64,000 nt of DNA. It comes from Candidatus Poribacteria bacterium. GTDB taxonomy: Bacteria > Poribacteria > WGA-4E > WGA-3G. Made by a program: the position numbers and the translations under genes. Location: positions 1 to 64,000 of the forward strand of contig JAJEET010000158.1 of NCBI GenBank assembly GCA_022820835.1, written 5' to 3'. Below are positions 10,456-47,815 of the stretch, piece after piece. Under the pieces are notes generated by a model that saw nothing but the letters and a program-made list of their open reading frames with translations, was not told the DNA's origin and did not search any database. The stretch's first letter is position 1. Each line of letters begins with the position of its first letter.

Positions 10456-10488
10456 AAGAAATCAGGACTTACGCATGCTGCTCTTCGG

Positions 10489-34180: not shown

Positions 34181-34245
34181 ACACTGATTGTTGACAGTTA
34201 ATAGCTGACAGCCATTATTTACTGAAAATCAATAAGGAGAAATCC

Positions 34246-35154
34246 ATGTTTAATTCTGTTTCTCGACGCATCTCACTTGGGGTCTTACTGTTGATGGTAA
34301 GCACAGTGGTGGCAACCGCCGCACGCGCGGAAATTCAGTGGAGCGATTCAGTTGAAGAAAGTCTATCGAAAGCAATAGAGACCGGGAAACCTATAATGAT
34401 GGACTTCTATACCGATTGGTGAGGGTTCTGTGATCGGCTGGATGCCGAAACGTTTACAGATGCCCGAATTATTGAACTCGCTGAGAAGTTTGTTCCCGTT
34501 AAGGTGAACCCAGAGATTACCGAACGTCCGATCAATGAAGAGACGCGGAGCCGATACGGTGTCACAGCTTTCCCGGCAGTGCTGTTTCTCAGTCCTGATG
34601 GTGGGCTCATCCAGAAAGCTTCTGGATTCCTACTCCCCGAACAGTTTTCACCGATTATGGAATCTGCCTTGGAAAAAGAAAAAATCTTCATGAAGCAGAT
34701 CGCTGAACTCGATAAGATGCCGGAAGATGCCAAACTTAACGCACAGGTCGCAATCACTTATCTCGATCGGATGCAGTTTGAAAAAGCACTCCCGATCAGT
34801 AAGAAAACGTTTGAACTTGACCCTAAAAATGGCACAGGGTTGATTCCAAACTTGCACAACCAACTCGGACTCGCTTATGCTGCAAAGGGTGAAACCGCTG
34901 GAGACGCTAAAGAAATGGCGACTTACTATGAAAAGGCGATCCTTCACTTCAAAACTGTGGTAGACGAATACCCGAAAAGCGACCTCAATCAACCCGCACA
35001 GTATTATCTCGGTGTCACGTATGCACTCGGAGAAGATTATGATAGTGCCATCTCCGTGCTTGATAAACTGGTCAATCATACCAGTGACGATATGATCAAA
35101 CGTAACGCTGAAGCGATGTTGACGCGAATAAAACAGTTGGCAGGAGCCAAGTAA
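34246..35154 (+). CDS. Secreted thioredoxin-TPR protein, probable selenoprotein (UGA = Sec59)
   Basis: The frame starts at ATG 34246 after AAGGAG. It encodes a signal peptide (cleavage near ATAARA|E), a thioredoxin-like domain and a TPR-type C-terminus (about 160-302). Codon 59 (34420-34422) is TGA, in MDFYTDW-TGA-GFCDRLDAETF. Relatives have WCGxC here, so the protein would carry a U-G-F-C redox motif. After the TGA the frame runs intact for 243 codons, with the thioredoxin cis-proline region (YGVTAFPAVLFLS). A SECIS-like hairpin follows the TGA. Read with selenocysteine it has 302 residues. Without it translation stops at residue 58; a truncated frame beginning at 34504 would lack the active site. 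Likely a periplasmic thiol/selenol oxidoreductase. Confidence 0.8.
34420..34465 (+). promoter_or_regulatory. Candidate bacterial SECIS element
   Basis: It begins at the TGA. The lower stem TCTGT (34427-34431) pairs with ACAGA (34456-34460), and the upper stem TCGGC (34434-34438) with GCCGA (34444-34448), closing a five-base loop TGGAT with G in its second place. GGG and CCC at the base could add pairs. The loop starts 16 nt after the TGA, close to the 17 nt of E. coli fdhF. Confidence 0.65.
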
Positions 35155-43079: not shown

Positions 43080-43580
43080 TCAATTATTGATGGCGCGCTT
43101 AATTAATTCTGCATGGCTTTCAAGGAGCCCAAGAGTGCGATTAATTAAGTTTTTATTGGTAGACACCTCTTTTTTAATATTAGACACCTCTTTTTCAATA
43201 TTAGACACCTCTTTTTCAATATTCTCAATGGAGGTTTTGACAATTTGACTGAATTCTTCACGCGCTATGGTTTCGGCATGGATCCTTTCTATAATATTTT
43301 GGGAAAGTTCTCTCTGTTTTAAAAACGCCTTCTCGTTAGCTTGCTCCATCTCTATCTTTGTAGCGTTAAACGCATTTAGAAGTATGTCTTTTTCAAGGGT
43401 TTCTCGATTAAAACCGTTATCCATTTTTGCTTCGACTGCTTCAATCTTATTGGTAATACGGGCAATTTCATTGGCAATCTTGTCGTCCCTTCTTTTCGTG
43501 TTAAAGACCCAGACAATAAAGATGCCGAGACCCGTTGCCGCAACGGATGTTAGAATGGGTAATATGACTGTGTTCCACAT
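43080..43580 (-). CDS. Membrane-anchored coiled-coil protein
   Basis: The protein has 166 residues. One N-terminal TM segment (ILPILTSVAATGLGIFIVWVF) is followed by a long predicted coiled coil, with the repeat IEKEVSNIEKEVSNIKKEVS encoded by about 21-nt tandem repeats at 43160-43225. No family is recognised. It lies 65 bp upstream of glnE on the same strand. Confidence 0.6.
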   Translation of the reverse strand: MWNTVILPILTSVAATGLGIFIVWVFNTKRRDDKIANEIARITNKIEAVEAKMDNGFNRETLEKDILLNAFNATKIEMEQANEKAFLKQRELSQNIIERIHAETIAREEFSQIVKTSIENIEKEVSNIEKEVSNIKKEVSTNKNLINRTLGLLESHAELIKRAINN

Positions 43581-47032: not shown

Positions 47033-47815
47033 ATGGTTACCCGCGAAGAGATTCAAGCGACATGTGACGACATCGTGCGCGAATTCGCACCGCTACAAGT
47101 GATTCTTTTCGGCTCCTATGCATACGGCACGCCGACGGAGGATTCGGACGTAGACCTGCTTATTGTGATGGATGTTCCGAAGTCGGAGTTTACGCGTAAG
47201 GCGATTGAGATACGCCAACGTATCTCATACCGTTTTGGTCTGGATTTGTTAGTCCGTTCACCGGAAGAGATCGCGTATCGTGTATCATATAACGACTGGT
47301 TTCTTCGTGAAGTCACTGAAAAAGGGGAATTGCTTCATGGTTTTGACGCAGTCTGCAATGTTAAAAACCTACAATTCACACATTACGGAATAAACCTTGC
47401 TGAAAACGAAGGGGGCTGCATGAATCCATTGACGCAGGAGTGGGTCCAGCGGGGTGAAGCCGATTATGTCACGGTACAGCAGCTGCTGTCGACAGCGAAC
47501 CCGCTACTACATAATATTATCTGTTTCCATGCCCAACAGTGTATCGAAAAATATCTCAAAGCATGGTTGCAAGAGGCAAACATGCCTGTTCTAAGGACAC
47601 ATAACCTTGAAGAGTTACTGGCGTTAATTGTACCTACGCTACCAGATTGGTCTGCTTGGCAACCGGACTTTAAAATAATCACGAAGTACGCGGTGGAGCC
47701 TCGTTATCCTGGCGATCCGGTGACAGTCGAAAATACGGAACATGCCAGTTCCATTTGCGAAGAGGTGCGTCAAGCGGTTCGCACGCAGTTGAAACTTGGG
47801 ATGTCTGGAAAATGA
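47033..47815 (+). CDS. Fused MNT nucleotidyltransferase-HEPN protein
   Basis: The protein has 260 residues. Residues 1-105 are a minimal nucleotidyltransferase with LFGSYAYGTPTEDSDVDLLIVM (GSx10DxD). Residues 130-258 are a HEPN domain (EWVQRGEADYVTVQQLL, ICFHAQQCIEKYLKAWL, RTHNLEELL). In HepT/MntA type VII toxin-antitoxin systems the two are separate proteins: MNT AMPylates and silences the HEPN RNase. Here they are one chain. An internal ATG (47420, Met130) with AGGGGG just upstream sits exactly where a separate HEPN gene would start, so a second, HEPN-only product is possible. It is next to the restriction-modification gene. Confidence 0.87.
   Translation: MVTREEIQATCDDIVREFAPLQVILFGSYAYGTPTEDSDVDLLIVMDVPKSEFTRKAIEIRQRISYRFGLDLLVRSPEEIAYRVSYNDWFLREVTEKGELLHGFDAVCNVKNLQFTHYGINLAENEGGCMNPLTQEWVQRGEADYVTVQQLLSTANPLLHNIICFHAQQCIEKYLKAWLQEANMPVLRTHNLEELLALIVPTLPDWSAWQPDFKIITKYAVEPRYPGDPVTVENTEHASSICEEVRQAVRTQLKLGMSGK

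Follow-up and report, generated by a model that had tools for sequence, protein, structure and literature searches.

A predicted exported thioredoxin-TPR selenoprotein family in Poribacteria

The window analysed here is a 64,000-nucleotide stretch on contig C91 of a Candidatus Poribacteria metagenome-assembled genome (5.43 Mb, 163 contigs). Positions 34246-35154 of the forward strand hold one reading frame of 302 codons plus a stop, which begins with ATG at 34246, ends with TAA at 35152-35154 and is open except for a single TGA at 34420-34422, codon 59. As the sequence-only reading had pointed out, this TGA takes the place of the leading Cys in a thioredoxin motif, W-C-G-F-C. The features of the locus are as follows.

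34191..34218, forward strand: sigma-70-like promoter match, TTGACA-16-CATTAT, 10 of 12 consensus positions (weak evidence)
34234..34239, forward strand: Shine-Dalgarno-like AAGGAG upstream of the ATG at 34246
34246..35154, forward strand: putative selenoprotein gene for an exported thioredoxin-TPR (Trx-TPR) protein, 302 aa, Sec59 (TGA), TAA stop
34246..34329, forward strand: predicted signal peptide MFNSVSRRISLGVLLLMVSTVVATAARA, AxA-type cleavage site, no lipobox Cys, read off the sequence
34330..34665, forward strand: thioredoxin-fold domain, DsbD-gamma-like, active site D-W-U-G-F-C (U59, C62)
34420..34422, forward strand: UGA codon, predicted to be read as selenocysteine (Sec59); TGA in 74/74 poribacterial relatives, Cys outside the phylum
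34423..34465, forward strand: candidate bSECIS stem-loop directly after the UGA, -21.3 kcal/mol, z -4.05
34434-34448, forward strand: apical hairpin UCGGC-UGGAU-GCCGA, 5-bp stem, loop beginning 16 nt after the UGA
34666..35151, forward strand: C-terminal TPR-like helical repeats (TPR_6 and TPR_19 models), with model helices between residues 131 and 301

The AAGGAG motif also precedes the ATG of the relatives, and an RBS-like motif lies at most 22 nt from the start in 63 of 75 genes. Promoter-like sites, which were called by consensus match only, number 5 in the region against 1.9 expected. The protein reads as a single unit across the TGA: the Pfam models Thioredoxin_2, Thioredoxin_7, DsbH-like and Thioredoxin all span the codon, and the TPR models follow downstream, which bears out the earlier view that the frame is intact and domain-consistent on both sides. 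The best Pfam match is PF13098 (Thioredoxin_2; 47.6 bits against a cut-off of 27), with the motif UGFC (UxxC), and the invariant P110 is the candidate cis-Pro of the thioredoxin domain. An AlphaFold2 model of the chain has a pLDDT of 91.2 and a pTM of 0.84, low confidence being limited to residues 1-26 in the signal peptide. Automatic calling loses the N-terminus, as anticipated; the ORF caller returned only 34504-35154, a 216-aa product with a GTG start, and most or all poribacterial copies probably carry a similarly truncated annotation that omits the active site.

That 216-aa call is what would be expected if the TGA were a true stop or a sequencing error and the gene a pseudogene or a pair of short proteins, and in-frame stops most often arise by nonsense mutation. 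The relatives argue strongly against this explanation. The family is present in 73 of 85 poribacterial genomes (a raw tally of 74 counts G076, whose sole match is a long DsbD-like frame). After removal of duplicates, the distinct poribacterial genes that cover the position carry TGA in 74 of 74 cases and Cys in none. These genes come from the genus itself, from further genera of its family, from three more families of the order and from a single, more distant member of the class (G052). They diverge to less than 40% identity, and with few exceptions their frames are otherwise uninterrupted up to a normal stop; a conserved protein persists in frame on both sides of the TGA. The codon also recurs in independent assemblies, including the single-contig genomes G005, G010, G022 and G028, whereas errors cannot recur across independent assemblies. 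Altogether we regard a stop or an error as very improbable. Most loci long enough to display gene order share the arrangement yidC-jag-mnmE-gene-rluB-HAD-pdxJ. Some genomes hold two copies, both with TGA (L103; L101 and L102 of G065), and one genome (G047, C6:53593-54363) has a 799-aa open frame with a 30% match and no stop.

The sequence-only reading had named selA, selB, selC and selD as the genes to look for, and all four are present in the source genome. The tRNA-Sec (C114:49610-49699) scores 76.4 bits against a cut-off of 47, and selB (C114:49874-51769) adjoins it on the same strand with 361 bits against a cut-off of 242. selA (C1:2007-3365) scores 601.6 bits, and selD (C116:26443-27366) scores 360.9 bits. 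The selD gene has its own in-frame TGA in CAGUASK (locus L119, G000:C116:25000-29500, about 1444-2470), a Sec-containing form that we take to be a known SelD variant. It is thus probable that the Sec machinery is used by two genes or more. In the surroundings of selB and selC (L118, G000:C114:46000-56000), dapB-like genes and signal-peptidase-like genes each occur as an adjacent pair, and both pairs, judged by eye from the translations, look like tandem duplications.

Readthrough of the UGA in this gene could also be explained by genome-wide reassignment of the codon (codes 4 and 25, with Trp or Gly, are examples), with a residue other than Sec at position 59. Yet of 59 long frames in the window, 18 stop at TGA; the codon also terminates the selA frame and serves as the stop codon of six genes of the Trx-TPR family itself. 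Because TGA still terminates other genes, the genetic code is not reassigned. Moreover, the gene has a single in-frame TGA, always at the position held by Cys in outside homologues, and the genome encodes a tRNA-Sec and a SelB dedicated to Sec. Reassignment is therefore even less probable than a stop or an error.

Eight gene-bearing genomes have no tRNA-Sec match, of which four have a full selA and G034 has selA fragments. Searches for tRNA-Sec and selA in G030 (96% complete), G065 (81%) and G068 (73%) found neither, and all three hold an intact gene with the TGA. Incompleteness of the assembled genomes is the simple explanation for such gaps; for these three, either contigs are missing or the Sec system was lost recently.

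The RNA that follows the UGA has the properties of a bacterial SECIS element. When folded from the UGA onward, none of 200 shuffled sequences was as stable as the -21.3 kcal/mol of the native one. The loop of the apical hairpin, UGGAU, has G at position 2, and the hairpin satisfies the published bSECIS model, whose constraints were taken from PMC13188914. Across the 74 genes, the four inner stem pairs form in 68, 73, 73 and 74 cases. Codons 64-67 are under the strongest synonymous constraint within the gene. The Leu65 codon is CTG in 73 of 73 genes (entropy 0), against 0.48-2.29 bits in 17 other conserved Leu columns; Arg64 is CGG in 64 of 65 Arg codons; and the Arg64, Asp66 and Ala67 columns are the least variable for their respective residues. 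Thus, the hairpin overrides the synonymous freedom of codons 64-67. The second stem pair also covaries, being G-C in 65 genes and A-U in 7, with no mixed case among 72. In the seven A-U genes, CGG has become CAG (Arg to Gln) together with a change of GCC to GCT, and these genes are interleaved on the tree with CGG/GCC genes. By parsimony, as counted on the tree, roughly three coordinated switches, or else gene conversions, are required to produce this pattern.

The lower stem is poorly kept among the relatives, with a mean folding z of -1.24 over the 74 genes, and G052, the most distant relative, has a weak stem. Because the extended lower stem is not conserved, we claim constraint for the apical hairpin only. 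RNAalifold (44 sequences) proposed a second helix in which a region upstream pairs with the UGA (columns 15-35); it shows no double changes, and since bSECIS elements sit downstream of the UGA, it was set aside.

Outside Poribacteria, the homologues that align with the greater part of the Trx-TPR profile carry Cys instead of Sec, in the motifs WCPPC (L125), WCGYC (L128, L129, L132 and L134) and WCGWC (L130 and L133); a Leptospira homologue of the same Trx-TPR layout has WCSYC. The proposed alignment of homologues at this codon thus gave a clear division, with UGA in the poribacterial genes and Cys in the rest. When a maximum-likelihood tree was built with 12 Cys homologues, the Sec genes of Poribacteria clustered together with support (100/98), although several long branches join near the base of this cluster. 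In a search of the phylum of the Aminicenantes relative, the loci read had only Cys at the aligned position, and the TGAs reported there lie at other places. The genome labelled Aminicenantes (G085, L047) is 10.4 Mb in size and may be a mixed bin, so its Cys homologue needs care.

Insertion of Sec at the UGA is predicted from sequence evidence for every step and would occur almost certainly; that the gene as a whole encodes a selenoprotein has, in our estimate, a probability of about 0.93. The sequence-only reading had proposed a probable new selenoprotein. Its selenocysteine part gains from the machinery, the conservation and the SECIS element, whereas its novelty narrows to a new family and architecture, because the UxxC kind is known. 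A 2026 inventory of prokaryotic selenoproteins includes a UxxC thioredoxin, a PF13098 thiol:disulfide interchange protein and a Trx7/PDZ protein (CxxU) (PMC13188914). Neither TPR nor Poribacteria occurs in the text of that inventory (PMC13188914), and Poribacteria were unmentioned in the further open-access selenium literature searched, an earlier mention in a subscription paper being possible. Enrichment of SelA and SelB in sponge symbionts had already been noted (PMC5649159). Against NCBIfam (June 2026), no model reaches its cut-off with the window protein among the matches listed. The predicted exported Trx-TPR protein is therefore a new family among known Trx-fold UxxC selenoproteins, and no new mechanism is involved. 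It adds a well-supported selenoprotein family to Poribacteria, a phylum with many marine-sponge members.

Several known systems share parts of this design. The PF13098 thiol:disulfide interchange selenoprotein (PMC13188914 Table 1, PMC9312934) has the same Thioredoxin_2 domain and UxxC motif, with Sec replacing the N-terminal Cys of the active site, but its inventory entry (representative WP_011366075.1), by whose description the two were compared, mentions no TPR domain. The best NCBIfam match is the C-terminal Trx-like part of the TsoB rhodanese/DsbD fusion-like selenoprotein NF045694 (E 6.6e-20), which is matched by all 31 members; however, the score is 70.7 bits against a cut-off of 805, the match is confined to residues 428-569 of 572, and the TsoB motif is UxxxxU with two Sec (PMC13188914). 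The Trx7/PDZ selenoprotein NF041199 likewise joins a Sec-bearing domain of the Thioredoxin_7 type to an interaction domain, but it combines CxxU with PDZ rather than UxxC with TPR, and scores 25.6 bits against a cut-off of 300. In both sequence profile and fold, the C-terminal (gamma) domain of DsbD is one of the closest solved structures. DsbD-gamma relies on two Cys and belongs to a membrane protein, in contrast to a soluble, predicted exported protein with Sec and TPR; the membrane beta and alpha domains of DsbD were sought on the 302-aa chain and are absent. CnoX/YbbN shares the Trx-then-TPR layout and is the top fold match, but it is cytoplasmic, has SxxC in E. coli, has no signal peptide and differs in domain orientation. 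Among plasmids, a DNA similarity search found nothing, and a protein similarity search returned 18 weak records, with thioredoxin family, DsbD and DUF255 annotations among the matches listed.

We propose the following mechanism. SelB, tRNA-Sec and the stem-loop just downstream would recode UGA 34420-34422 to Sec, yielding a 302-residue pre-protein with a signal peptide, a DsbD-gamma-like Trx domain bearing U-G-F-C for C-G-x-C, and a TPR domain. In the periplasm, Sec59, which is very probably redox-active, would attack client disulfides or oxidised thiols as the nucleophile, the mixed bond would be resolved by Cys62, and the TPR domain would recruit a client or partner. The membrane reductase DsbD probably re-reduces the protein. 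A separate Cys-type DsbD-like protein, roughly 620 residues long and bearing WCAAC in the gamma part, was recognised by layout and profile match; it is encoded on contig C40 and could supply periplasmic electrons. Because the Trx domain is near DsbD-gamma and the genome has a separate DsbD, we favour a periplasmic Sec-dependent thiol-disulfide reductase or isomerase fed by DsbD, with the TPR domain binding a client or partner. This best guess, to which we give somewhat better than even odds, includes a putative periplasmic location and catalysis, a presumed coupling to DsbD and a supposed client.

Alternatively, client binding may be the main job, and the protein may be a Sec-containing periplasmic chaperedoxin whose TPR domain holds unfolded clients while the Trx domain protects or repairs their thiols. 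Consistent with this, the top whole-chain Foldseek match is E. coli YbbN/CnoX (3qou), CnoX combines holdase activity with redox protection, and Caulobacter CnoX keeps CxxC (PMC8129009). However, the global superposition on CnoX is poor (TM 0.27, rmsd 21.8), the Trx domain is nearer DsbD-gamma, and CnoX passes its clients to GroEL in the cytoplasm, whereas the window protein has a predicted signal peptide. On balance we consider a chaperedoxin unlikely. A stricter version, in which the phylum as a whole has a Sec-dependent periplasmic Trx-TPR folding factor that is never swapped to Cys, is more doubtful still; if true, it would be a candidate reason why most Poribacteria keep the Sec machinery.

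Domains of the DsbD-gamma type hand on electrons to specific partners, and TPR domains are partner-binding modules. Such behaviour would also suit a protein that docks through its TPR domain and specifically donates electrons to another enzyme, be it a periplasmic peroxidase, a methionine sulfoxide reductase or one of cytochrome c maturation. The gene stands alone, however, and its neighbours mnmE, rluB and pdxJ suggest no partner, which leaves a dedicated donor a rather improbable alternative to the DsbD-fed reductase or isomerase. Among the 74 poribacterial genes Sec is never exchanged for Cys, although proteins of this layout with Cys are found outside Poribacteria; therefore, what Sec gains over Cys is testable on natural pairs.

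Variants of the gene were also observed. In one sister genus, some genomes have two Trx-TPR selenoprotein genes (in tandem in L103 of G069; L101 and L102 in G065), and in the second copy the Trp that precedes Sec is gone (D-S-U), with unusual motifs such as UDFC or UYWC. In L105 (G062:C50) and in L045, of the same kind, a diverged paralogue combines the lipoprotein-type signal LLSSGC with TGA at the Sec codon; its frame ends early downstream, and it is possibly a decaying or frameshifted copy. Within the window, further in-frame TGAs lie at 43246-43248 and 47813-47815 on the forward strand and at 10462-10464 on the reverse strand, each in a frame that is open on both sides and overlapped by no other long ORF.
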